Origin: Daphnia pulex
Lineage: Eukaryota > Arthropoda > Branchiopoda > Diplostraca > Daphniidae
Length of the DNA stretch: 64,000 nt
Direction of reading: 5' to 3'
NCBI RefSeq assembly: GCF_021134715.1
Contig: NC_060026.1
Span: 1,116,001 to 1,180,000 of the forward strand
In this document: positions 10,765-43,979 of the stretch, one piece after another
Layout: each line of letters starts with the position of its first letter
Numbering within the stretch: position 1 is the stretch's first letter
Position numbers and translations under genes: made by a program
The notes under the pieces: generated by a model
Databases searched by the model: none
What the model saw: only the letters and a program-made list of their open reading frames with translations
Told to the model about the DNA's origin: nothing

Positions 10765-12640
10765 ATGTTTCAAAGATATGTTTCTCGAAGAGATGAAAAT
10801 GTGTTACTAAATGTTAAAAAGAGTGTCAAGTCTCTATATGATGTGTGTATAGACAGTCTAACTCAGCATATGAGCCTCTGTCAGAAAAAGTGTTCGTTGA
10901 GACAACTTCAAGATGTGGACATTATAGATTCTGAATTTAATTCAAGTCCTTTTGAACAACTGTGTAAGTTACAGAAATTATAATTTGTTAAAGTTACACA
11001 TTAAAATTTTACTTTCCTTTATGGGATATGTAAATTATTAGCACAACAAATCTTGGCTGAAGTTGCCGAAGTTTACAATGAAAGGTATTTTGAAAGTAAA
11101 ACAGTCTTCATGCAGATGCTAACGCTAACCCCACACTGTCAGACCTTGACAATGGAAAATTATAAAGGAAAGCATGTTATAAGTTTACTTAAATTTGCTT
11201 CTGTCAGATGCCCGGTAAACAAATTCTATTCAATAATATCTTTAAAGATTATTTACAGCTTTTTATCATAGGAATTACAATTATTGCGGTTTTGGAATAA
11301 TTATGACATTCCAATGAAAGATTTATTACCTTCAATTTCTAAATTTACAAAATTGCAAGTCTTGCATATTGTGTCATCTCCTATAGAGCTGGACAGCCTT
11401 TTTAACACTCTTGGAGCTAACTGTCCAGATTTGAGGTATATTCTTTACACAAATTGTTGTGTTTTTAGGACATATGAACGAAACCATTATTTCTTTCAGA
11501 GCGCTGCAACTATCAGCGCAGGTGATGAGGGGATGTTGCGGTAAAATGGTGTCGGAAGATGGAATTCAAGGTCTGTGTGTCGTTGGTAAATGCAAGTTAA
11601 TTCATACATTAGTTTTTGATGACATCGAAGTTACAGAAGAAGTGATCGCGATAGCACTTGAAAATCTACCCGTGTTAAAAATATTTCCCCATCGCTTAAC
11701 TGTCAGAGTTTTAGCCAACCTTCATCGAAAAGCGCTCGGCAAAAAGTTGTTTATTCCTACTTTTTCGTTGTCAAGCATTGATTTATATAGACATGATGAT
11801 TACGCGACCGCCGAAGATTGCGTACTAGCATTAGCCGTTTGCCCCTTTATAACGAAAGTGACTGTCAGGTACTATGATCGTCGATTGACGGACGATGATT
11901 TTCAGGTCTTGCACTATTTCAAAAATCTAAGAAACCTTCATATGTATACAAGAGACTATACCAACGATTATACTAGTGGTTTAGCCCCTCTACTTAAAAC
12001 GGTGGGGAATTCTTTGATATTCTTAAAGTTAAAGGGTTTTCACAAATTGGATGTCTATGATATCATCGAGTATTGTCCCAATCTGCGCTCTCTTTCTCTT
12101 GTACGTAATCTCGACTATGGCAGAACTACCGTTCTCGATACACATAGAGCGAAGAAGAATATCGTACTTAAGAATCTCGAAATGTTGCATTTTAGTGATC
12201 TAAGTCATGTAAGTCGTGACAGTATGCTGCCTGAAAGTCTATCTTTACTCCTGTCATCGCCTTCCCTACGATATATTGACATGTACCGTTGCCAAGCAGT
12301 AACTGACGAGACCCTTCTAAAAGCTGCTAACCTTCACCTATTCCCAAACCTTGAGCAAATCCAATTACTACGCTGCGATCGCGTATCAAGAAAAGGGTTT
12401 GAGGCTATGATTAAAAAATGTCAATCCCTCAGGGAATTTGGGTTTTTTGATTATTTCAATGTTGGATACTTTAGGGGATGGCGAAAAACATTTGTTAAAC
12501 GCAATTGGCAGACGGATTTCAGTGTTGATGATTTCCTTGGTATATTTTTTGATTACCATGGTAACCCTATCGTTATAAACCAGCCAATAGATTTCAATGA
12601 ATATCATAAGCAAATGGTATTACTTTCTTCTTTGCGATAG
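10765..12640 (+). CDS. Leucine-rich-repeat protein, paralogue 1 of 3
   Basis: Four exons: 10765-10963, 11042-11214, 11272-11435, 11500-12640, with splice phases 1, 0 and 2; 558 residues. The start ATG opens a short N-terminal helix region (VKKSVKSLYDVCIDSLTQHM) that aligns with the same region of the two paralogues downstream. Exons 2-4 encode irregular 25-30 residue LRRs of the cysteine-containing/AMN1-FBXL type, with motifs such as LRNLHMYT, CPNLRSLSLV and LRYIDMYRCQAVTDETLL. The N-terminal S-L-x-D-x-C-x-D pattern resembles the start of ZYG11-type CUL2 substrate receptors. A ubiquitin-ligase adaptor role is therefore possible but only inferred. This copy is the most diverged of the three in its N-terminus and lacks the acidic tail of copy 3. 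Confidence 0.85.
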
Positions 12641-12969
12641 CCCATAAGGACAAAACAATCGATTCCATGATTATCTGAATAATGATGTTTTGAAGGAAGT
12701 ATTTTGAATATTTAAAAATTTTACTGTAGTTTGAATGGTTTGAATATATAATGTCTTCTTCTAAAAATCGTCCGATTCTACACTTGTATTCAGTTTATTT
12801 TTTTAAATAGTAGTTTTCATTGATATTTTTCATAAAAATTCATAAAATTGATAAAAAGATTAGAAATAAAATAGAAAATTACGCAAACTATAGAACATGC
12901 AAATAAAGCAGGGTATAATACAAAAACAAAGTCACCGCAATATAAAGACAGGTCAACGCCAGTGCAGTT

Positions 12970-14293
12970 TCACCGATCCTTGGAGTAGGTACACTGCTGG
13001 ACGAGCCAATATTGATGACAGGTGGCCGACTGTTCTCTGGGCTGCATGGAGGACTGTAGTGCAACAATAGAACTTAAAGAAAAACCTTTCTTAACAATTG
13101 AAAAGTAGTTAACAGAGACTGACATTGACTGCAAACGGTTTCTTGACATCAATCGCCTTCTTCCAATGTTAGCAAGCATTCTGGCGTAGTGGATCCTGCG
13201 TCTGTTATCTAGACGTTCCCTGGACAATAAGGGATTCCGAGTTAAGTTGCGAACAATTGATGCGACCATAGTCGAAGATGATACAGCGGCGGGTGGATCT
13301 ATCATACAGATAAAAAACACGACACAGATCAAACTTAAATCTTCACTGCACATACAGCAACCGGGAAACTGACTTTGAGCGATGCTTGGTAACTCCTCGA
13401 TTTGCATCTCTCCCAAAACCAGACCACGGTCAGTAATCCGGTAAAAGGGATTGTTGTATTCCGGTGTTCGTAGTCCAGCAGCCAAAAGATTTCGGTGCAG
13501 TTCCTGATGTTCCTTTTCAAATTTCCTCCTGTTAGATTGTTCTTCCTTCGAATACAAACTGATCATGATGGCAATCATGTTATCGACCAAGAAATTTCTT
13601 TTTTCAGCACGTATTGGCTCACGACAGATAGGGCATCCAGCTGTAGGCGACTCGCTTTTCCATTTAGCAACACAGTATTGGCATAATGTGTGCATACAAT
13701 TCAATGAAGTAGCCTATGTGATGAAATAAGATTGGTAGTGTAAATTGCGTTGGCGTGGGCGTAGGATAGAACTCCCGAGTTAGTCAACTTACGAAAACCA
13801 TTAGTTCTGAACAAACTCCGCAGCGAAGTTCTAACAACATTTTATCCAAAATATCCTGGTGATTTGGGTTAAATCCAGTGTGACTCTAAATTTTAAATAT
13901 TGATTCTATGCACAGTTAAAATCAAATTATATTGTTAATACTTTGAGTCCAGTGTGAAGTTGTAATTGGGCATAAATTAAGTTTAGCTCCACTTTAATAT
14001 GATCAAACTTCAAGGTGAAGACATCAAGCTTTTCCTGGCATTCAGCAACTTGTTGGCACTTCAGCTTATTCAAACAAGTTAAAAGATGGCATTGATACTC
14101 CATTTTGGCTAAACGCTGATCCTTGAGTAAACAAATTTCTTTCTCTTTATTTTTCATTTCCTGGAAAGGAAAAGGTTTTAAATTACTACTTAGAAATAAA
14201 TTTATAACAAACGTCCCAGCAGGTACTTACTTGTTTTAACTTCAACAATTTTTCTTTAAGCTCGAGTAGAAGTTGACACGCTTGTTTTTCCAT
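12970..14293 (-). CDS. RNF8-like RING-finger protein (no FHA domain)
   Basis: Four exons: 14293-14231, 14160-13942, 13885-13793, 13713-12970; 372 residues. The first about 95 residues form a coiled coil rich in Lys, Glu, Leu and Gln. A C3HC4 RING follows: CGVC, then CMHTLCQYC, then CPIC, with the first pair and the rest split by an intron. The stretch after the RING (FLVDNMIAIMISLYSKEEQ) matches the RNF8 pattern of a helix following the RING. RNF8 is a DNA-damage E3 ligase that reads phospho-proteins through an FHA domain. No FHA is present here, so the name reflects only the coiled-coil plus RING part. The last 130 residues are Arg/Ser-rich and unrecognised; a hydrophobic stretch near residue 258 might hide a short intron. 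It starts 450 bp from LRR copy 2 on the opposite strand. Confidence 0.72.
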
Positions 14294-14744
14294 GTTTGTG
14301 TTTGATTCTGCGGTGAAACTCATTCATTGATGTTCACGGACGTCGAGGGCAAACTGAAAGTTTGTTACTTGTCTATCTCATGCCTTCATAGGGTTACGAT
14401 GTACGAACGCAAAGTTTGACATTTTGACTTTTGTGAAATATCGATTCAATCCAAATATCGGATTAAAATGTTTAAAATTTAATTTTCGAAGAATTTCAAA
14501 GCCCATTTTAAAATGAATAAAAATTTCCGGTAAATAATTTTTTTAATTTAAGATATCTAATCTTGCCAAATTTTTTTGTTTAAAACAGTTTTACCAGAAA
14601 ATATTGTTGCGACCTGACATGTGCTTTTTTTTTGCTGAACAAAAAGCTAACAGCAGACGTCTGTAAAGGTGAAGAGATTATCTGTTTTTTAATGCTTAAT
14701 TATTATTATTTTTTCACTGAAGTTTTCTATGTTGTTTTTCTGTA

Positions 14745-16434
14745 ATGCCGCGAGTAAAAAGAGTGGAGTCTCTTTTTGAAATTTCCATAGATTTTATTAC
14801 CGAAAACATGGATACATTTTGTAAGGAAATTTCGACTCTGGGTGAGGTTGACGCTGTCAGTCTCGAAGGAAGCACAAATGTTTTTAATCTGTTACGTGAG
14901 TATGAGTTGTTCTAAATATTATCCAATTAGTCTTCAATTGATGTATTTCCATTTTTTTGGGCTGTGTCAACTTTCTAGCTTCCTGTTTTATCGAAGAAAT
15001 CATCAAGGTTCTTGGAGAAAAGGGGTATTTGAAGAAACAATTCCTTGAATACCTGATAACCCCCAGACTTCGTACTTTAGACTTTAGTACCATGTGTGTT
15101 AGAAATGAAATTTCTGACCTTCTCCGCTTTGCTGCCAACAGATGCCCAGTTAGAAATATAAAAATTTACACATATGGTTTTATTTTTAATTTCATTCCAG
15201 CTGTTGTGTTAGGAACTGAAAACTTTGATGCTCTTTCATCCCACATATTTCCTTGATAATGAAGACTACCTGAATTTCATCCCAAATTTTACTGAATTGC
15301 AAGTACTGAACATTTCTTACTCAAGAGCTGGAGATATTTGCTTGGGCATTCTTGGTAGCCATTGTAAGAAATTGAGGTAATTTTAAACAGTATAAGAATT
15401 AAATCTAGACATGTTGTATAATGTTTTGTTTTTTTAGGGAGCTGTATGCTGAGCATAGTTCAGTGACAGATAGTGGTCTTCAAGAGCTGTTTATTTTTGG
15501 GCAATGCAAGTCAATTAGTACATTGGATCTTGATTGGACGAAAGTGACCATGACAGGAATTCAAATGGCATTAGATAATTTACCTTCCTTGAGGGTGCTT
15601 CATCACCAATCTACTGTTGAATGTCTAGTCAAAATCCATCAAGCATCGTCTCATCAAGAGCTAGATATTATCCCCAAGTACAAATTGTCAATGCTCGCCA
15701 TCCGTTCTCCCTTTAAAAGTGGTAGTCTACGTATAGCGGTATCCTTTTGCCCTTTGCTTACTAATGTCGACATCAGAATGCCTAAAGAATTGACTGACGT
15801 TGACCTATTAAGCTTATTGGTTCTTGAAACCCTTTGCGACCTAAAAATTTGTGGGCATCGCGATGGAAATATTACATTTCCTGGCGGTGTGAGACCTCTT
15901 TTGAATTCATTAGGGAATTCGCTTAAATCTCTAGAACTTTCCCTGTTCCGTGACGTTAATATTCCAGTAGTGACGGGATCTTGCCCTAATCTTATCTCCC
16001 TTAATCTTTTAAACAATTTGAATTATATTAATCCCTGGCAAGATGGGCAGAATTTTTTCAAAAGCGATGAAATCTTAATGAATCTCGAGGCATTGAATTT
16101 AAAAGGCCGCATTCCCTCCCTGCATCTTTTTTTGCTCCTTTTTTCTCCCTCGCTTGTGTGCGTCCGCTTAAACGATTGCGACACCCTCACTGACGAAATA
16201 CTAATGATGATCTCCATTTTCCATCGATTCCATAATCTTGAGCACTTTGAAATTTCAAATTGTAACCTTGTGACCGAGAAAGGTATCGACGTATTCATGC
16301 AAGACAGCAATGCGCTTCAGAAGGTTGAGTTTAAATGGTGTGATAAGGTGACGCGGAAGAATATTTGTGACTGGAAGAAGAAAGCCAATGAAAAAAATTG
16401 GCAATTGTCTATTTCGGCTCAATTAAGTTTTTAA
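14745..16434 (+). CDS. Leucine-rich-repeat protein, paralogue 2 of 3
   Basis: Four exons: 14745-14895, 14979-15148, 15213-15376, 15438-16434, with splice phases 1, 0 and 2, exactly as in copies 1 and 3; 493 residues. The protein opens MPRVKRVESLFEISIDFITE, almost collinear with copy 3. LRR units include LLSLLVLETLCDLKICG, LNSLGNSLKSLEL, CPNLISLNLLNNLNYI and HNLEHFEISNCNLVTEKGID. The exon 3 acceptor was chosen at TGTTAG before GAACTGAAAAC because it keeps the 164-base exon length shared by all three copies. Function is unknown; a protein-binding scaffold or E3 substrate receptor is the best inference. An AATAAT-type 3' signal is not obvious. Confidence 0.86.
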
Positions 16435-16849
16435 AATTGTGTTGTCCTTTTATTGCATTCGTTTATGTAACATAATTGGGAATGTTCTGATAATTATCAA
16501 TTAAACTGAAATGGTTAACCTCTAAATTTTAGGAAAATTAAAAAACCGTTTAGTGCCTGTTTTTAAAACCGGAAATCGTCACTTCCTTATTTTTATAAAT
16601 CACCTATATCATGTGCACAGCAATAATAACAGGTAAAGACCTAATAAATTGTCAGCTACCTGTGCTGCGTTAAGCAAGGTACCCAGGCTGTTAGTGATTT
16701 TTTTTCCATAAAAAAAAATATATAGAATATGCCCTATCTCCTTTTGCAAACAGAATGACTATCTCGCTTCATCTTTATTTGTGAGGCCCACTTCAGGTTC
16801 GTAGCAAAGTTGCGGATTTTTAATAGAGTGGAGAATATGATTTCCAAAT
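16435..16849. other. Intergenic, AT-rich
   Basis: The 3' flank of LRR copy 2. It runs into the body that would follow the minus-strand tRNA-like SINE head at 16850-16918. No open frame or RNA gene was recognised. Confidence 0.5.
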
Positions 16850-16918
16850 GTCTTCGATGGGATTTGAACCCGGGACTCCGGCGTGTCAATTGGAGACTGT
16901 ACCACTAAGCCATAAGGT
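16850..16918 (-). repeat. tRNA-derived SINE head (minus strand)
   Basis: Read on the minus strand, a polymerase III A box TGGCTTAGTGGTA (16912-16900) is followed about 30 bases later by a B box GGGTTCAAATCC (16871-16860). The spacing fits a tRNA gene, but the acceptor ends and the anticodon arm do not pair properly, so this is read as a tRNA-derived SINE or tRNA fossil. The downstream body on the minus strand runs into 16850-16750 without a recognisable tail. Confidence 0.6.
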
Positions 16919-17010
16919 AATGATCAAGAGAAATGAAATATTGTTATGTATTCTCAGCCAATACTTTTTTAGGATATGATCTACTTCCGGTAATAGTTCG
17001 ATCAGGATAT

Positions 17011-17290
17011 GCGACCATGGTATAATGGTTATGGCATCTAGCGTTGTATCCAAATATCCCGGGTTCGATTCCCACTTCCGCCACATTGTCCTCCATTGTT
17101 GTTCCCAATATAGCCCGGTATAATATAACCTTGCATGTACTAATCCTAACTAAAACCAACTAAACCAACTACTAAACCAGTACTACTAACTACTATGATA
17201 AACTAACCATGCATGTACTTACCCTTACTAAAACCAACTTAAACTAACTACTAAAACACTACTACTAACTAAAACCAACTACTAACATCC
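17011..17290 (+). repeat. tRNA-derived SINE with an ACTAA-type tail
   Basis: The 5' part (17011-17082) resembles a tRNA gene: an A-box-like ATGGTATAATGGTTA and a B box GGTTCGATTCC (17062-17072). The T-arm pairing is imperfect and the acceptor stem is poor, which argues against a working tRNA. After about 60 bases of unique body, the sequence becomes a loose repeat of CTAACTAAAACCAACT units (about 17140-17280), a typical SINE 3' tail. It lies within 100 bp of the opposite-strand head at 16850-16918. Target duplications were not identified. Confidence 0.6.
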
Positions 17291-17813
17291 TATATGCGCG
17301 GCATATATATAAAAACATCTTAGATAAATTCGTTGGGGCAAGTCAGATCGCTTATCATCGTAAGACGTGGGACACTCTTGTACGCAGTAGTACTCGAGGG
17401 TTGGCTACTGCTGTAATAGACCGGTATGAGAGATGGCGAACCCTGAACGAAAAAACCTTTTCAATATTTTCATTTTATAAATGCCTATGAAAGCTTTAAA
17501 GCCTCCCGGCGAGCAAGATTAATATTTGTTTTTAAATGAATTGCTCAAAATGCTCATATCAAATTATCAATCAACTCATGCCGTCTGATGTCATCGAATT
17601 CGATTCCTATTTCCCGCTATTTCCAGAGTGATTATTTAGCAGTTTGGCAGCGTTGCACGACCCTACAATTTTTTAATCCTTTTGCTTTGTGCAGTAGCCA
17701 TAGCAGGTCATGTGAAGAAAAGGAAATAAAATAATTACTAGTGTCAGATCTTTCCTTATAATTGTAATCACATTTCCTTTGAATATCTGTGATTTAATAT
17801 TGTCGATGCAAAC

Positions 17814-19747
17814 ATGCCACAAGTAAAAGGTGTTGAGAGTCTGTTCCAGTTGTGTTTAGACAATGTTACAGACCACATGGATGAATGGGCTAAGAAATCG
17901 CCTAAGTTGAATGGAGTGGAGGACATCGAGTTCATCCAAAAAAGCACTAATCCTTTCTATGATTTACGTAAGTAACTTGAATTACATAATGATGTCGTGA
18001 CTTCATATGCATTTTTCTATTGTCAATTCTTTTAGCTTCTGTTATCATAGAGGAAATCATTCTGCTTCTTAAGAAAAAAAAATTGCTTGAAAACAAATTT
18101 ATTGAGCTTCTCATCACTCCACAATTATGGACTTTGGATTTCCGTTCAATGCGTGAAAAAGATGAGGTGTCTGGCCTTCTCCGTCTTGCCACCATCATAA
18201 GCCCAGTATGTTTCAAAATTTAAACATATTTAATGGCATGAACATTTTACTTACTGACACACTTTAGGATCTGAAAAATTTGTGGCTTTGTCATGAGGAA
18301 TACTTCGTAGACAATGATAAATATGAGAGTTTCATTCCCAAATTCTCCAATTTACAAGTTGTGGATATTTCATATTCTAAGAAAGGAGACTCTTGCTTGC
18401 AGTTACTTGGCCTATATTGTAAAGATTTGAGGTTGGTCTCTTTGTTTTATTTATAATGTCAGTTTACTACAAACAAAAAAACATTGATTTTTTTTTAGAG
18501 TGCTGCATGCTAAACACAGCTCAGTTTCAGACTATGGAATTCAACAGCTGTGTGTCAGTGGACGGTGCAAATCCATTCACACATTGGATGTTTTTAGTAG
18601 CTTCACGTGTGTTACAACTAAGGGTCTCCAGTTGGCCATTCAAAATTTACCTGCCCTAACTATACTTCGTCACCCATTATTAGTTGACGCTTTGGCCGGT
18701 ATGGCTCAGGCTGCCATGGATGAAAAACTTGAAACGCCCAAACTATCCTTGTCGACACTCGCCATCCATTCGTCATATAAAGCTGGTAGTCTGGCTCTTG
18801 CTGTGTCCATATGCCCGTCTATTACGACTATAGATGTAAGAATGGCAGAAGAAATGACTGACATTGAACTTCATGCCCTATTACCTCTTAAAAATATTAG
18901 TGCCATTCATTTTTGTGCTTCTGACCATAACACATTTGATGGTGGCATTGTCCCCCTTCTTAAGTCTTTTGGAAAATCTTTGAAGTCGTTGGAACTTTTT
19001 TTTTTCACCTCTACCGTTAAAATTCGTGCTGTTATCGAGTATTGTCCCAACTTGAAATCCCTAACCCTCTGTTGTAATAGCAGTTACTCGATGGCGTGGC
19101 CTGAAGAAGGTCAAAAATCTCGTGAAGGCGAACCGATCGATGGGGGACGACTCGAATTGAAGAAGCTTGAACAGTTGCAGTTTTTTCTTGGAAAAGGATG
19201 CATCGACAGTGAAGTTGTGTTGGCACTTCTTTCATCCTCTTCGCTCAAGTCTATTTTCTTAAGGGGTTGCTGCATTCTCACTGATGACGTTCTGCTGAAA
19301 GCCACTAATTACCACTCGTTCCGAAACTTGGAGTCTTTAGATATATTTGATTGCAAGTCGGTTTCAAGTAAAGGTATTGACGTCCTCATGGAAGAAGGCA
19401 ATTCTCTCAAGAGTCTCGACATTCGTGATTGTGGGCAGATTTTGATTAAACACATTTCATCTTGGGTCAGGAAAGCTGCGAAGAATAATTGGGAATTATC
19501 TGTGTATCCCAAAGTTCCTCTTTGTTGCGTTGAACACAGCGATTCTGATGATAGCGATTCTGAAGAAGGATTTGAATTGTTGCATTTTTTTCTAGCTGGT
19601 GTTATACATGATATGCTGGGTTCGGATGATGATGATGATGATGAAGATATAGAGGTAGAAGAAGACAGTGATGAAGACCAGAATTGGAATGGAAGTGCTG
19701 AAGAAAGTGAAGGTGTGGAAGACGATGACGATGTTATGGAATTTTAA
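17814..19747 (+). CDS. Leucine-rich-repeat protein with acidic tail, paralogue 3 of 3
   Basis: Four exons: 17814-17967, 18036-18205, 18268-18431, 18499-19747; phases 1, 0 and 2; 578 residues. The N-terminus MPQVKGVESLFQLCLDNVTD matches copy 2 closely. The LRR array includes CPNLKSLTLCCN, SSSLKSIFLRGCCILTDDVL, FRNLESLDIFDCKSVSSKGI and SLKSLDIRDCGQ. Copies 1 and 2 end soon after the last LRR. This copy continues for about 80 residues with a Ser/Asp-rich region and a long acidic run (DDDDDDEDIEVEEDSDEDQ), ending EGVEDDDDVMEF. The tail suggests a nuclear or histone-contact role, which is inference. The short AATAAT near 19756 may be the 3' signal. Confidence 0.87.
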
Positions 19748-20225: not shown

Positions 20226-23032
20226 ATGTCTCGTGAACTAAGTAACTGGCAAGAACTGTTAGATTCTTTTACCAAAACCGGCGTAAAACAAGGGAAAGTC
20301 AACAAAATTCATCAAATAAAAAACAGTAATGCCGACAGAATTAAAGAAATTCTACAGGATGAGGAATTGAGGTATGTCTTAAAATTGGTAAGCATTGATT
20401 TAAAAGTCACACAACACTCAGCTTCTTTTTGTATAAATTGCAGAGGGGTGTTGATAAAATGGATGAATCACCAGATAAAGCGTGAGCAATCCGATGAAGC
20501 AACTAAATATTTTCGGGAGGTTGGAAACAGACAGTTTTCTCTCAAGGATTACTCATCATGTATAGAAACGTACACCCAAAGCATTCTTAGTTGCCCTGAG
20601 GAAAGTGAAGTTGAAAAAAGTTTGGCCCTTGCTAATCGTTCTGCCGCCCTATTCCAATTAGAGTTATATGAAGACTGTCTTGAAGATATAAAGTTGGCGA
20701 TTAAAAAAAATTATCCTAGTCACTTGCTGCCTAAAGTTTTAATCAGAAAAATGAAATCGCTTAAAAAATTGGGCAAAGAAGAAGATTTACAAACAACAAT
20801 AGAAGAATTAGAGTCTGTCATGAAACACTTGCAAATGACAGAGAAAGGTTTTCATTTTTTCATTTAGAATTTAGTTCTTGAAATATATTTTCTAATTCTC
20901 TACAGGAAAAATCCAGTCAGATATTAGGTCTGTGTTGCTGGATAACCAAGATAATGAGAATGGTCCAAGGGAAGCATTATCAAAAAAAGAAGATCTGGTT
21001 TTTCCTTATTGCGGGGAAAACTCTTCTTTTAAAGGAGCAAGTTCTGCCTTGAATATCAGGTAAAATTTCACACTTTTTTCAAATGAGTATAATTTGTAAT
21101 GGTATGCTGCTATTTTATTCTTACGCTAAACAGCCACTCGAAAGAAAAAGGGCGCTACGTTGTAGCTAACAGAGATATTAAAGCTGGAGAAACTCTTTTT
21201 GTGGAGCAACCTAATGCGTTGGTGGTTTTGCCCGACTTCCAGACTTCTCGATGTCATCATTGTACTCGTCACTCATCAGCAAAACGATATCCGTAGTTCT
21301 TCTATACTATACAGGTGTCATGCAAATGCATTAATTCCCTTAATTTGCAGATGCTTGGCTTGCGGTAAAATTTGGTTCTGCAGCGATTCCTGCCGCCAAG
21401 AATCATCCTGTTACCACAATTTTGAATGTGGACTTGAAGCGGTACTGAACTCTGTTGGAATTGCCCATTTAGGAGCGAGAATTGTTCTCTCTCATGGACT
21501 AGATTCAGTGTTAGCCTTTCTGAAAGATACCGATAAAGTGAAAAAAGTGCCTGGTATTGATGGGCCATACGACACTAAGAGTTACCAGGTTATGTTCCAT
21601 CTAGTCTCTCATACTGAACGGATGGCTCCTGAAGAACTTTACCAATACGCGTTGGTAAGGAATTCTAATCTTCTTTTGTATCACTTGTATTGTTGTATAT
21701 TCATGGTTTCTTTATTTTTCTGATTGTAGACTGCTGCTTTCCTAACTTTGCTACTGGAACAACACTCGTCATTTTTTCAGTCAGCCTCTCTAGAGTCTCA
21801 GTATCTAGTTGGTGGCCTGATTTTGGTTCACGTCTGTCAGATGGTGAGCAATGCCCACGCAATTACGGAACTCTGCCTTATAGACGAGAATAATGAAAGA
21901 CAAGAAAGAATTGCAACCGCCATTTATCCCTCTGCCAGTCTTATGAATCACAACTGTGATCCGACCGTGATCAATAGGTTTGATATAGTAATTCAGATTT
22001 CTTTCCCAGCGATTTTCACTGAGTGTTCAAATGCCACCCATCTTGTAGTTTCCAAGGTAATACGCTGATTGTGCGAGCCATCCGTAATGTTCGCCAAGGA
22101 GACGAAGTATTCAACTGTTATGGACCACATTATCGCCGAATGAGAAGGAGTGAAAGAGTAGAAGCTCTAGAAGCACAATACTGCTTCACTTGCACCTGTG
22201 ATTCTTGCCTCGATAAAAATACTGAAGATTTCCAGGTAGCTGAATCCAGGCTTTTATTTCTAACTTCAGGATCTTCATATTATTTATTTGTTTACATTTC
22301 CAGGACGTTATATATTCATTCTCGTGCCCGTCTTGCCAAGGATCTCTCATCAACCCCACCGGAAATAATTCATCCGCTCAGAATCAGATGGCCCTATGCA
22401 GGTCGTGCAAAACACCTCAAAGTTATTTCACCCAGCTAAAAGCGGATTTAGAGGCAGTGTCACTTGATGCCAGAGGTATAATTTTTTAAAATTATTAATT
22501 TGTTACAAATATTTTCATTTTCAAACTAATTTTATTAAATAAAAAGGAACGGAAGCGATGGATCAAGGAGATATTATGGGAGCAATCAAACTGTTAACTA
22601 AGTGCGTGCAATTACGTAGCAAAGCTTTGTTCAAAGGGCATCCGGATTTGGGAAAGAGCGCTGACAAGTTGGCCCAGTGTTACGCTTTTATAGGTAAATT
22701 TCATGAATTTCATTTACAGAAAAAATTTTTAATTGCTTTAATTTTGTCATGCAGGGAAATACGAAGAATGCGAGAAAATGCTACGAATCTCTCTCACCGC
22801 CGTTGAGCATCGCTATGGTCGGTACAGCATTGAAATGGCAAACGAGCTGCAGAAATTCACGGATGTGTTGATGGAGTTGGCATCGGGCAGAAATCAGCGT
22901 GCGCGTGATGAGCTGGTTAATTATTTAGAAGAAGCAATGCTCATCTACCGAATCCACTACGGTCCCTGGAGCACCAGTTACAATGAGTTACAATCCAAAA
23001 AAGTCCATTTGACTTCTCTGTTGATGAACTAA
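20226..23032 (+). CDS. SMYD4: SMYD4, SET and MYND domain methyltransferase with TPRs
   Basis: Ten exons join in phase (20226-20371, 20444-20847, 20906-21059, 21134-21292, 21351-21654, 21730-21977, 22049-22235, 22304-22475, 22547-22693, 22755-23032), giving 732 residues. N-terminal TPR-like helices (about residues 75-180) precede a split SET domain: KGRYVVANRDIKAGETLFVE, then a MYND zinc finger (CHHC, CLAC, FCSDSC, YHNFEC), then SET motifs SASLMNHNCDPTV and GDEVFNCYGPH, and a Cys-rich post-SET (CFTCTCDSC). C-terminal TPRs follow. SMYD4 is known as a lysine methyltransferase family member linked to heart and muscle development; its substrate is poorly known. The NHNC and CYGPH motifs needed for cofactor binding are present, so it is probably active. 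It is slightly shorter than the vertebrate protein (about 800 residues). Confidence 0.94.
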
Positions 23033-36920: not shown

Positions 36921-38037
36921 TCAACGCAAAGAATTTGGACTTGATGCACAAAACATCTCTTCGACCAATGAATGGAGCATTTTTTTCTTTTCAGATTCAT
37001 TGTTCTCACGTTCTTTCCATGTGGCTATCTCCGATTCCAAAACCTGAATTTTCATCATGGTGGCATCCAAGATCCTCTTGTTTTCAGCGAAAATTGTAGT
37101 AGTATTCGTGACGATTTTAAGAAAGTATTCAAACCTAACAGAAACAAAATTTGAAAATCGAAATACGGAGACAAATACTGTATTATTGTAGACCTTTCTT
37201 CATAAACCGAAACCAGTTCACGCAATCTGAACTCTTCGCGCTGTATTGCGTCACATCTTAGCTTGCAATCATTTAATTCCTGTACAAAACGAGATTAAAA
37301 GATTATATTTCTACCAGGGAAATAATAAGGACTCACGAGTCACGACTCACCATTACAAGCTTCTCTTCTTTTGATACAGTTGCTGGACTCTTAGATATTT
37401 CCATACGATAAATTTCTGAATCCTCCAAGTTTTGTTTGTGGTCTTTTTGTTTTAAGTAAGCAATCTCATCTAAAGTGGTAATAAAGAAGTTTGAATTATA
37501 CTCAACATCAGAACCTAAACAGGAAAGTGTTCACCTTTTAAAGAATGGCAAGTTTGTTCTAGCTTAATGCAGGACATTGTCTTTTGAACATTCTCTGCAT
37601 GGAGTTCCTTGATGAGCTTCTGCATATGCTGCACATCTTCAAGAGAAAATTCCTCTGGTGCCAATTTGAACTAAAAAATTAATCATCAATTACTAAATAT
37701 GTATCTTTATGTGTAGTACAAATTGATGATTACTTGAGTTAAAATTCTCTTCTTTGGGGTAAATTGTTCTTTTTCCATACTAGAATTTGGGGAATCACTA
37801 CTAACTTGTTCGGCTTTTTGTTGGTTATGTAATGGAGTTGAACTCCATGTAGGTAACGGAGAAGAAAAATAGCTCTGCTGACCCAAGTCAAAATATTATG
37901 TATAATAGACCATTAGGTTACTTAAGTTGTGGTGATGTTTAACATACCGAATGCTGACTTTCACCTTCGTTTTCCTCAGAACAAGTCTTGTCATTGATGC
38001 TGATCTGCTGCATTAATGACTGAAGCTGAAAATTCAT
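36921..38037 (-). CDS. Short taxilin-like coiled-coil protein
   Basis: Six exons starting at the ATG at 38037 (MNFQLQSLMQQISINDK), about 262 residues, ending FCASSPNSLR before the TGA at 36921-36923. The middle and C-terminus are coiled coil. The segment RELVSVYEERFEYFLKIV, then TTTIFAENKRILD, then VLESEIATWKER has the spacing of the taxilin coiled coil, which binds syntaxins and nascent-chain machinery. Taxilins usually exceed 400 residues; this protein keeps mainly the C-terminal part, so it is a distant or shortened relative, or another coiled-coil family. The gene lies just left of the large inverted-repeat transposon, whose left end is about 330 bp upstream of its start. Confidence 0.62.
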
Positions 38038-38759
38038 TCTTCTATTACTAGATTGGACGACAAAATGAAAAAAGAAAATGAAATCATAAAAGAATCATGA
38101 AGACCATGTGTACAACAGAAATTTTTTTGTTTGGTTTCTCACCAATTTCCTACTGAAACTCTTTGTTATCAAGGTACTTAGTATTCTTTTAGAAATGTCA
38201 GCAATTCGGTAAGAGATAATCCAGTTATTAAAAAACCCCAAAGACCAAAACGAGGTTTAGGCCGTCAAAGACCGTTGATTCGGTGACTAATGGCAGTATG
38301 GCAAGTGGAGGATGGGGGAGGAGGAGCATAAACAACAAAGATGGCGCAATCGCGCAAGGGTGTCAATAGACCTCTTGCACCGTGCGGATAGCAGGATTCT
38401 TGTAGTCCGACAATGTTGCAATCCGCCATCTTAATAAAACCACACCCTTTTTTTACATGGGCTCTTATGGGAGTATTTTTTCAAAGTGCTTTTTCTCTTA
38501 CCTGGATTACAACTTCGACCAAAGAAAAATATGGAAAAATACTACATCATTCAGGTAATCCGTAGAATGTAAGTTTTCCACTATTGAAGTAGTGGAAGTC
38601 ATATTAATTAAATGTTTTGTATAGGGCATATGGGCATTGTTTACATATGTAGGACCAAAACATGTATAGTATACTTACAATTTTTAACATTTTCCCACTG
38701 AAACACTTGGTAATTGATTTTTCCTTATTATTTAGATTGTCGTGTGTGTGTGTGTGTCA

Positions 38760-39092
38760 ATTTTACACTGAAACACGATACGGAAAACAAGTTAATGTTG
38801 CGAATTGGAGATTTTGAACTGGAGATTTTGTTGCATCTGCCATTGCTGTGTGATTGTGAAGACAAAAACGTTCCATATGTCATATGTGTTTGTCCGTTCA
38901 AAGCAAGGTAATTTTATAAAATTATTAGTTTAGATGTGCTATAATAAACTCATTCTTTATTTAGCACTTGGACGTGCTTGTGGAGTCTCCCGTTCTGTTA
39001 TTGCAGCTTGTTCTGTGACTGTACATGAGGGATCATAACCGAAACCACAGATTCAGTCTTTACAACAAGAAATTGAAAAACTTCTCGTTTGA
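38760..39092 (+). pseudogene. SNU13: SNU13 (15.5K / NHP2L1) 3' fragment inside the transposon
   Basis: SNU13 is the L7Ae-family protein of U4 snRNP and box C/D snoRNPs. The first part reads LEILLHLPLLC, then EDKNVPYV, then (in a shifted frame) FVRSKQ. A 64-base intron with GTAATT and TTTAG follows, then LGRACGVSRSVIAACSVTVH, then EGS, a stop in place of Gln, PKPQIQSLQQEIEKLLV and the normal stop. The N-terminal exons are missing. An upstream run of GT repeats replaces expected coding sequence. With a premature stop and frame changes it cannot make SNU13; it is a captured, decayed copy. The retained intron shows the capture was from genomic DNA, not from mRNA. Confidence 0.85.
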
Positions 39093-39360
39093 TCTCTCTT
39101 GAGGGACAATGCTGTGCTTGAAAATACAATTGCCATTTGGCTGTTCATTGCCTAACATCTCATCTTTTACATTAATCTATCAGGTTCTCCATTCCATTTT
39201 GTAGATTTTGATATAGAATGTGCATTTCAATCCACAACAAATATGTACAGCATATCGGATTGTTGTTAAAACTATTACATTCAAGAGTTAACCCATAGAG
39301 TTCCTTCTGTGTGAATTATTAGACGTGCACTACTTGTTTAATACAATTTTTAAATGTTTA

Positions 39361-39531
39361 TTAAGCAGAACTTGAGAAGAGATTAGGATAAAAGACAAGG
39401 CCTCTAACAGTATCATCTCTACAAATCAATCCATTTCTTTCCATGAAATAAAGACGTTCTTGTGCCAACACAATCGATATTTGGAATTCCTGTGAAACCT
39501 CCAATGCTGTGAGTTTATCCCTAGCCTGTAA
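39361..39531 (-). pseudogene. VPS36: VPS36 last exon inside the transposon
   Basis: VPS36 is a subunit of ESCRT-II, which sorts ubiquitinated cargo on endosomes. On the minus strand, after the acceptor TTTTTTTAG, the frame LQARDKLTALEVSQEFQISI, VLAQERLYFMERNGL, ICRDDTVRGLVFYPNLF, SSSA, stop matches the C-terminal winged-helix end of VPS36 (the CRDDSVEGLRFYPNLF signature). The stop overlaps an AATAAA. No other VPS36 exon lies within the element or the next kilobase, so this is a captured last exon and its frame is still open. It faces the SNU13 fragment tail to tail. Confidence 0.85.
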
Positions 39532-40122
39532 CTAAAAAAATTTGAATATGTTAGGATTGCATTAAAGAAAAAGTAATGAATTTCAATAGAAGTATCAATT
39601 TGGCTGTGGGTTTAATAACTGTTATATTCATGTGCAACAGCCAGGACCTAGATCAGAAACAGCAATTGAGTTGAAAGTGTCGACCTCAGAATAATGAGAA
39701 TATGAAATCATTAAAAATACATATCAACACGATACTGGCTATTCAATCAGGAGATCAGCCCATTAATGAGCTCTTAAAATTGATCGCAGGGCGCAGAAAA
39801 GAAGAAGGACACCCTTTGACAACACACTTGTGATAAAACCAACTTTGAAATTTTAGGGGATGCCCTGTACAAAACATTTAATTAATATGACTTCCACTAC
39901 TTCAATAGTGGAAAACTTACATTCTACGGATTACCTGAATGATGTAGTATTTTTCCATATTTTTCTTTGGTCGAAGTTGTAATCCAGGTAAGAGAAAAAG
40001 CACTTTGAAAAAATACTCCCATAAGAGCCCATGTAAAAAAAGGGTGTGGTTTTATTAAGATGGCGGATTGCAACATTGTCGGACTACAAGAATCCTGCTA
40101 TCCGCACGGTGCAAGAGGTCTA

Positions 40123-40754
40123 TCAATTCTGAATATTCTGATTTCTGAATTATTAAAAGTCTGGGTAAGTAATTATTGAGTAATCTCTATGGAAAATAAG
40201 ATTAATGGGTTAAATACTTATAAAAAGGAAGAGATTTTTGTGGGAGCTCGGAGGGTGTTTAAAGGAAAAGCAAGCTTAGCGGGTACAGTATTTTCTTTTT
40301 GTAGACCTTTTCCAGATGATTCTGATTAATGCAATTATCGTAATGCAGCAAATTGATCACTAAATTGAATGCTTACATAGTGGTCGTTATTCATTATGCT
40401 ACAAATATTCGGTTAATCTATTGTATCGTACAAAATCTTCCAGAGTTCCAGACTTCATTAGAAAATCATTAGAAAATTATGAATTTTCCACGTAACTTCT
40501 TCTTTGGCCCTCTTTATTCATTGCCTAGGTATTTTATATCATTATTATAATATAGTCGACTTAGATAGTTTAAATAAACCGCGTAATGATAGTGACGCCA
40601 TCTATAAGCTTTGAGATAAACTATCGATAACTAAAAACGTTTTCGCTAGATGGAGTAGGAACTGACTAAAATAGTAAACAAAACAATTACAAACCACACC
40701 GGATCGAAAACTTCTTCTTTTTTCGTTGGAATTAACTTTCAAATACTTCCTGAA
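40123..40754. promoter_or_regulatory. Promoter side of RPP40
   Basis: AT-rich spacer between the right end of the transposon and the RPP40 start. The short leader before 40755 holds no competing upstream ATG that I could support. No TATA box was seen. Confidence 0.4.
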
Positions 40755-42100
40755 ATGTACAATCCAGAGGTAATAAATTTTCCTCCACCAAAATCCTTGA
40801 AACAAACATGCACATGGAAGAAAGACCAAATACTTAATAAAGTGCCTTCCCAAGACCTAGGAAATCATTTTCATGGGGTAAGAGTGAAACTTCAATAACT
40901 TTTTACATTATTCTAATAGAGGAGTATTCTTGTTACAGATTACTGCAATCTTGTCTGGGGAAATTACTGAAATAGCTGAAATTCAAGACTTCTTTTTAGA
41001 CTCAACATTTTACAGAGTTAACAAATTCCCCGTTCATAAGTTGCTGGACCCTGATTTTCTCTCTGCATTTGTTAAAAAAGGACATTTTGATGCCAGAACT
41101 TTAGGAACATGGGGTGAAGTTGATCAGAGTATTGTTGTTGAATCAGGCAAACTTCATCTTTCTGTCTGCAAAGATGTGTATCAAGAGCTAGGGTTAAGTG
41201 GCCAAGCAGAGGTAATTTCATCCAAAAAGTGTCCTGCTAAATACGGTAACTTAATTATTCACTGTAAATTTTTTCAGTTTGTTAACATTGTATTTGGTTT
41301 TCGTAGACATTTCTGTTAATCTTCTTGATGATAAGTTTTCCCCTGATTCTAAATACTACAAAAGAGTTAGTTGGTGTTTACAAAATCAGACAAGTCTACA
41401 ATTTGATTGGATCATGAATTGGCATCCACACGGTAAGGCTTTTCTTAATAGTGGAAATTGTATCAAGCGTTGACTAATAATAATGTTTTTACCACAGATT
41501 CTGACATCTGCCCATCTTCCCTTGCTGCTTACCTCGACTTGCTTGGCTTTCAGGTAGTTCAGTGTCTGCCATCCTTTGAAGAAAGAATTTTAAATCAAGT
41601 AAAGGTTCCACTGCTATGCACTGAAACAGACATTTCAGATGTTGTTGAATGGGTTGGAGCTGCTGCATTGAATATCACATGGTAACTAGATATGCTTTTA
41701 GAGTAAACTGAGATATTACATTCTTTGTTTTATTTATCTAAGTCCTGACCAAGAAGATTACACTTCTTCAATGACATGCCCAGAGCCCAGTTATAAATCT
41801 GAAAAGGTTCACATCTTGAAATGGAAAGGATTTTTTTCTGCAAGACAGGCAAAAGAGTTACTCGGCGTGATTTTGAAATTGCGACCAGAAGCAACAGAAA
41901 ACTCTGTTCAATCATGGCTTAATCTCACTCTCATTGGATTTGATGAATTCCAAATAGGTGTGTTTTATTGGCAATCATGTTAATTTCACATATTAATTTA
42001 TTTTTAATTTTCAGCATCAAGTATTTGCTCGGTTTTTACAACGGCATCGGACAACTGCCAAGTCTTTACAAACCAGACATCTAGAAGGAAAATCAAATGA
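40755..42100 (+). CDS. RPP40: RPP40, protein subunit of RNase P/MRP
   Basis: RPP40 (p40) is a protein subunit of nuclear RNase P, which cuts tRNA 5' leaders, and of RNase MRP. Six exons (40755-40877, 40939-41245, 41307-41432, 41498-41681, 41743-41957, 42015-42100) give 346 residues, close to the family's about 360. Family blocks are KFPVHKLLDPDFLSAFVKKG, ESGKLHLSVCKDVYQELGL, SWCLQNQTSLQFDWIMNWHP, DVVEWVGAAALNITC and VHILKWKGFFSARQAKELL. The last exon (ASSICSVFTTASDNCQVFTN) is less similar to vertebrates, and its acceptor is the least certain. Confidence 0.88.
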
Positions 42101-42866: not shown

Positions 42867-43979
42867 ATGGCTCCACTATCGACAGCGTTATTCTATATAC
42901 TAATTTTGTCTTTTACCTGGTCGAGTTGCGCAGCTAAACTCACGTTAGAAGAAGAATTACAGCAACTGAAGGAAAGCTATGTAATAAATCAAAAATGTTT
43001 TATTTAATTAAATTTCATTTAGGTTAGCTTTAATGTTAAAACTATTTAAATTGCAAGGTTCACCTAAAGCAACTTATGGATATCAAAATTGTTCAACTAG
43101 AAGCTAAAGATGCTCAGTTAGAAGAACTTTTGAGACTAAAAGACCAGAAACATGTAAGTCATCGCTTTCACTGTTAAACCGGATATTAACGAACTATAAA
43201 GATTGTAAATCTAAAGCAAGGAATTGGGAATGCTCCTTCAATCAACAGTCAATTAACCCCAAGTAACGCTACTATGAGACAAGGACTAGCAACAAAAATG
43301 CCCACTTCCTGCTTGGATCTTAAAAGTCTAGGACACCAATTCAATGGAGTGTACTCGGTAATGGGAGCTAAGTATGTCGAAACAGTCTACTGCGACTTTT
43401 CCAAATTAACTTTCGATCCCAGTAAGTTCATCCTCTGATATAATACTTTGATTTGCTCAAAAGAAGGAGCATTGGAATGACTTTTATGATTTAATTAATA
43501 TAGGTTTTGAAACGCGAATTGGATTTTCTGATATCAAATCTACACCGACTTACTTCTTTGTCAGGAGAAACAAGAACGATGTTTTCAGTCAAGCAAATAC
43601 AACAATTATATTCGACGAAGAACTAGTAAATGTGGGCGGAGCTATGAATACATCAACGGGGAAATTCACGGCAACGACAACAGGGACTTACTTTTTCAAC
43701 CTGAACGGATTGGCGTGGTTTCCGGAATCTTCTTATAGACTACTCCTCTACATTGCGCTGAAGTTAAATGGCAAGGACATCACATATTGTCACGCTAATG
43801 CGTTCGCCCTAAGAGGCACATGGAGAACCTTTTCTCTGCCATCAACGCTGAGGTTGAAAAAGGGCGACCAAATTTGGTTTGAAATTAATCAACTCTCCAC
43901 CGGTATCTATCTAAATGGTAGGGGTTACACTCATTTTACCGGTGGACTACTAGAGGAGGAAGTATTTGCGTCACTATAA
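42867..43979 (+). CDS. Secreted C1q-domain protein
   Basis: Four exons (42867-42980, 43058-43153, 43217-43421, 43504-43979), 296 residues. The ATG at 42867 gives a clean signal peptide (MAPLSTALFYILILSFTW, then SSCAAK), so it is preferred over the upstream ATG at 42813. A short coiled coil (about residues 22-75) allows oligomer formation. A fibrinogen-like motif, SCLDLKSLGHQFNGVYSVMG followed by VYCDF, precedes the C1q domain of about 140 residues, with FSQANTTIIFDEELVNVGGA, GKFTATTTGTYFFNLNG and GDQIWFEIN. This fusion layout is common in branchiopod crustaceans (known to me from the family) and suggests a lectin-like recognition protein of innate immunity. Confidence 0.85.

Follow-up and report, generated by a model that had tools for sequence, protein, structure and literature searches.

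The 64-kb stretch of Daphnia pulex DNA considered here (the window; 38% G+C, zero N) carries an element of 1.76 kb in which pieces of two host genes, SNU13 and VPS36, lie between long inverted repeats. To its right RPP40 begins on the plus strand with an ATG at 40755 and is recognised by the Pfam family Ribonuc_P_40 (E 4.4e-40, exon translations joined with XXX). To its left lie minus-strand open frames that are coiled-coil-like by eye, with a start near 38037 guessed from the reading frame and no Pfam match above the cut-off. The element thus placed appears to separate two divergently oriented genes at their 5′ ends, a putative one on the left and RPP40 on the right. Its features are as follows:

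38363 to 38366, no strand: TCAA, left flank, candidate 4-bp target-site duplication; the same four bases stand at 40123-40126
38367 to 38629, plus strand: left terminal inverted repeat (TIR), 263 bp, starting TAGACCTCTTGCACC; 262/263 to the reverse complement of 39860-40122
38736 to 38907, plus strand: SNU13 exon, from the phmmer match to hSnu13; alignment secure from ~38819, 5′ part and start at 38736 guessed
38908 to 38964, plus strand: retained SNU13 intron, 57 bp, GT...AG; the exon ends read RSKQ and ALGRACGV
38965 to 39092, plus strand: last SNU13 exon with its terminal stop TGA at 39090-39092, from the phmmer match and translation
39093 to 39360, no strand: 268 bp between the stop codons, which face each other; 3′ UTR or intergenic
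39361 to 39525, minus strand: last exon of VPS36, 54 open codons and a stop, from phmmer, Pfam EAP30 and translation
39526 to 39859, minus strand: sequence upstream of the VPS36 exon, without coding match, read as part of the preceding intron
39860 to 40122, minus strand: right terminal inverted repeat, 263 bp, inverted copy of the left arm
40123 to 40126, no strand: TCAA, right flank, candidate target-site duplication, equal to the left flank

The two arms, 263 bp each, enclose 1,230 bp of cargo and differ at a single pair of positions (38622 versus 39867); their length prints as 264 nt if the outer pair 38366/40123, which also matches, is included. A search of the whole window for inverted pairs of at least 28 nt, with arms at most 8 kb apart, gave five, of which these arms are by far the longest; the other four measure 29-31 nt with 71-76% complementarity. 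Folded as a single strand, the arm does no better than chance (z -1.36; 16/200 shuffles equally good). Each arm contains one copy of the 9-mer AAGATGGCG (complement CGCCATCTT), at 38424 and 40057, and the window has two more, at 38338 and 4169, the one at 38338 starting 29 bp before the left arm; we take this 9-mer to resemble a YY1/Pho site, and on that assumption the arms might hold promoter-like signals.

The plus-strand piece is identified by a phmmer search of the PDB, in which hSnu13 is the best match at E 1.9e-21 (49 distinct sequences, E up to 10); a longer query reaches E 4.1e-25, its alignment to human Snu13 opening at the residues IGDFE. The translation matches the human protein from LEILLHLPLLC to the C-terminal LLV, directly followed by the stop. 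Coding before ~38819 is suggestive only: a reading of matching length would permit an exon start at 38736, and an acceptor-like site ends at 38735. Within the matching part the frame is broken. Relative to human Snu13 there are in-frame insertions of 6 bp near 38852 and of 3 bp near 39003, a 7-bp tandem duplication at 38874-38887 shifts the frame and an in-frame stop occupies 39036-39038. With this frame shift and stop the SNU13 piece is unable to code. Six-frame Pfam searches gave no L7Ae-type match, because the frame shift splits the piece. A 14-bp near-tandem repeat with one mismatch lies at 38802-38829, near the 7-bp duplication at 38874; small tandem duplications were considered as a sign of error-prone copying and set aside, since two loci in 296 bp, compared with 84 across the 64 kb, are too weak a signal.

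On the minus strand the VPS36 exon is intact: coding runs from 39525 to 39364 and ends in a stop at 39363-39361, the frame is open throughout and its 162 bp contain no lesion. Two VPS36 sequences, one of them human, lead the five phmmer hits (human E 1.4e-10, the second E 1.8e-10), the remaining three being unrelated at E ≥0.34. The Pfam family EAP30/Vps36 matches at E 2.1e-5 and 24.8 bits, just below its curated cut-off of 26.8, in an alignment that takes in the last 36 of 219 profile positions. A splice acceptor AG ends at 39526, and an AATAAA begins on the minus strand at 39362 and overlaps the stop. Translated in its three minus frames, the stretch upstream of the exon gave no VPS36 match in the PDB at E up to 10; WNK1 (one chain, E 1.9) and NADH dehydrogenase subunit 9 (two chains, E 3.5) were taken as chance. 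In viral contigs 12 stretches fit the pattern of the VPS36 exon and none was confirmed.

The original prediction, made without knowledge of the organism, is borne out in its description of the locus: the inverted repeats with one mismatch and their TCAA flanks (262/263; 38363-38366 and 40123-40126), the 3′ part of SNU13 with its intron retained (hSnu13 E 1.9e-21; 57-bp GT...AG) and the last exon of VPS36 with its 3′ end on the other strand (E 1.4e-10, own stop) are all present, and the predicted tail-to-tail spacing of about 270 bp is 268 bp from stop to stop. The broken SNU13 frame had gone unmentioned.

Six-frame Pfam searches between the arms found no transposase and nothing else resembling a transposable element (TE); one sub-threshold match to Permu_RdRp_palm in plus frame 1 (E 0.21; 10.8 bits, cut-off 27) was taken as chance. 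Rfam returned 0 matches at gathering scores in the whole window. Elsewhere in the window, three long plus-strand open frames at 11435-19747 (401, 341 and 419 aa) are mutually similar by eye and probably form a local tandem gene family; of the two searched with Pfam, one has a leucine-rich-repeat match just above the cut-off (E 2.6e-6) and the other sub-threshold matches only. Overlapping minus-strand open frames at 402-1311 carry FPISYFLF-like repeats in all three minus frames and are probably a simple DNA satellite, not genes. At 43452-43979 the plus strand encodes a C1q-domain protein (Pfam E 1.5e-17).

In our interpretation the element is a "Pack-TIR", a cut-and-paste TIR DNA transposon that is non-autonomous and has captured host DNA; we put the probability of a TIR transposon holding captured host DNA at roughly 0.77. 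The transposon part is supported by near-perfect 263-bp arms that end at an identical TCAA and by the absence of any comparable inverted repeat in the window. Capture across a convergent gene pair is supported by the two pieces lying on opposite strands, each with its own stop codon, 268 bp apart. The cargo would be a copy of host DNA that starts inside SNU13, takes in the 3′ part of that gene, crosses the intergenic region and stops within the last intron of VPS36; such a contiguous stretch would explain both tails, the intron and the acceptor. The template would have been DNA rather than mRNA, since the SNU13 intron and the acceptor before the VPS36 exon are kept. All 1.2 kb would have been taken in one event from a locus at which SNU13 and VPS36 were convergent neighbours. 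Following the models of Tan et al. 2021, template switching would have brought this DNA in, either while a break in the transposon was being repaired or where a fork had stalled; the filled element would then have moved here with transposase made elsewhere, duplicating TCAA. Counted against capture by a transposon are the lack of a second arm copy in the window, the lack of a transposase and the match of only four flanking bases.

Several alternatives, which are not mutually exclusive, bear on parts of this interpretation. One concerns the age of the cargo. At most one difference in 263 has P 0.03 had the arms diverged by 2%; the arms look young, and apparently younger than the SNU13 piece. 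Set against this single arm difference, the three insertions and the stop in SNU13 would fit a SNU13 copy beside VPS36 that was already broken before capture, or a cargo older than its gene-converted arms suggest. We hold this as a tentative possibility, for the lesions could also have arisen during copying. The greater damage to the cargo may thus reflect homogenised arms, an already broken source or error-prone copying.

A second alternative changes the family and keeps the capture. Mutator-like elements, including Pack-MULEs, make a target-site duplication of ~9 bp, whereas here only 4 bases match between the flanks (left GGGTGTCAA, right TCAATTCTG). The original prediction of a Pack-type transposon therefore stands as regards a TIR-bounded element with captured host DNA and is overstated in the sense of the plant Pack-MULEs, there being no 9-bp flank repeat. 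Excerpts of two sources place the ends of Chapaev TIRs at CAC...GTG (PMC4079192) and the piggyBac target site at TTAA (PMC2884549); the present arms end in TAGACC...GGTCTA and the flank is TCAA. From the one copy the candidates for a target-site duplication are TCAA on both sides, or TA. The latter would make the element Tc1/mariner-type, with a TIR starting GACCTC and an outer TCAA match that is coincidental. TA does stand at both outer arm ends, and TcMariner elements make up 115 of the 370 animal Pack-TIRs in the excerpted survey of Tan et al. 2021 (PMC8277862). The outer TCAA matches too, however, and would have to do so by chance, and the 263-bp arms exceed the <100 bp which that text gives for TcMariner, so that we consider this assignment somewhat unlikely.

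Given a TIR transposon with captured host DNA, the cargo was probably acquired in one capture rather than two. The same kind of transposon could instead have captured SNU13 and VPS36 separately, in either order, the pieces ending up tail to tail by chance. In favour of this is the unequal lesion load, four in ~217 coding bp of SNU13 and zero in 162 of VPS36. The chance that all fall in SNU13 is nonetheless P ~0.10 if lesions fall evenly (the computation took 218 and 168 bp, which exceed the true lengths by a few bases), which makes the imbalance only a mild mismatch for one capture and no strong argument against a common origin. The two pieces point toward each other, each continuing out past its own 3′ end, nothing TE-like was found between the arms in six-frame Pfam searches and a single event is simpler; two separate captures are accordingly unlikely.

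That no transposon is involved seems more doubtful still. A 263-bp segment could have been inversely duplicated around a duplicated host segment by repair or by template switching in replication, or an assembly error could have produced a like shape. The near-identity of the arms would suit either, as would the lack of a transposase and of other arm copies. No further copy exists in the 64-kb window beyond chance matches: the 15-mer TAGACCTCTTGCACC, allowed ≤3 mismatches, has three matches, namely the two arms and 22466-22480, where its shuffles give a mean of 1.01 and reach ≥3 matches in 6/100. Nor does the arm end occur as an exact 25-mer in viral contigs or as an exact 22-mer in prokaryote contigs, although these empty scans say little, being expected under either reading. 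The matching TCAA (two random 4-mers of the window are equal with probability 0.0056, before correction for the several flank lengths inspected) and arms that end together at their outer edges fit transposition better. A retrocopy is ruled out by the kept intron and acceptor and by the use of two strands, and an intact native SNU13-VPS36 locus by the broken SNU13 and the finding of only the 3′ parts of both genes.

As to consequences, the captured element is most likely without function. Antisense RNA from the fragments, raised in the original prediction, is possible; here, however, the SNU13 and VPS36 fragments occupy the loop and not the 263-bp stem formed by the arms, and any single transcript would run antisense to just one of the two genes. 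Since the cargo includes, on opposite strands, the last exon of each gene with its stop, the element might conceivably act as a two-way last exon, or exon trap, into which transcripts from either flank would be spliced and ended. The VPS36 side offers an acceptor, an open exon and an AATAAA, and the SNU13 side a possible acceptor and an internal intron; the SNU13 half is weakened by the absence of AATAAA or ATTAAA from the plus strand of the 268 bp after its stop. We regard this as very improbable. Were it true and repeated across a genome, Pack elements would have a new role.

The captured-DNA reading would supply a clean single-locus example of a TIR element that captured the tails of two genes at the DNA level. 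Should the intact genes prove to be convergent neighbours, exact breakpoints would be at hand for testing gap filling against fork switching, a choice that hinges on copy number and the empty site. In the excerpts of Tan et al. 2021 gap filling is proposed where a Pack-TIR has a single copy, and fork switching with transposition where it has several (PMC8277862). The general picture is unchanged, animal Pack-TIRs having already been published there.

The survey in question reports 370 Pack-TIRs, spread over 55 of the 100 animal genomes it covered; of these elements, hAT (208) and TcMariner (115) account for 323, and the rarity outside plants implied by the original prediction is to this extent overstated for animals (PMC8277862, excerpts). 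According to the same excerpts the bird and insect reference genomes in the study have none, with Ssk-FB4, a family from fly populations, reported in addition, and two human Pack-TIRs with antisense transcripts are mentioned. The main text of the survey contains none of the words Daphnia, crustacean and arthropod. The Daphnia pulex DNA transposon inventory lists 55 (abstract) or 56 (text) families; its excerpts give no TIR sequences, and neither 'captur' nor 'gene fragment' appears in the main text (PMC2884549). In the part of it seen here, an arthropod MULE paper of 2026 names gene capture once, in general terms (PMC13359780). A shallow literature search found no published crustacean Pack-type capture among the matches listed, and in literature searches the terminal 12-mer of the arm led to one paper and SNU13 paired with VPS36 to two, all of them unrelated. 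Among the matches listed, only a DINE-1 paper contains both 'Daphnia' (1) and 'gene capture' (4).

Of the known systems, the Pack-MULEs of plants share long TIRs and captured gene pieces with the present element (PMC8277862, excerpts, and in part general knowledge of the group) and are set apart by the 9-bp flank repeat that it lacks. Ssk-FB4 of Drosophila likewise has long TIRs around captured host gene DNA, but its TIRs are ~700 bp and its target duplications 9-10 bp, compared with 263 bp and 4 bp here (PMC8277862, excerpts). The animal Pack-TIRs were found beside annotated TE consensus ends, and a cargo of two gene tails is not described in the excerpted text (PMC8277862). As defined there, the inverted repeats on either side of the cargo agree with the termini of a known TIR TE consensus; a unique parental copy is ≥90% identical, has 80-120% of the length and lacks a flanking TE; the cargo measures >100 and <5,000 bp, and one derived from a gene with several exons must not lack introns. 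The present cargo, at 1,230 bp, falls within this range and retains the 57-bp SNU13 intron and the VPS36 acceptor. The element resembles the animal Pack-TIRs in being a TIR element with captured host DNA, in its kept introns and in the size range of its cargo (PMC8277862, excerpts).
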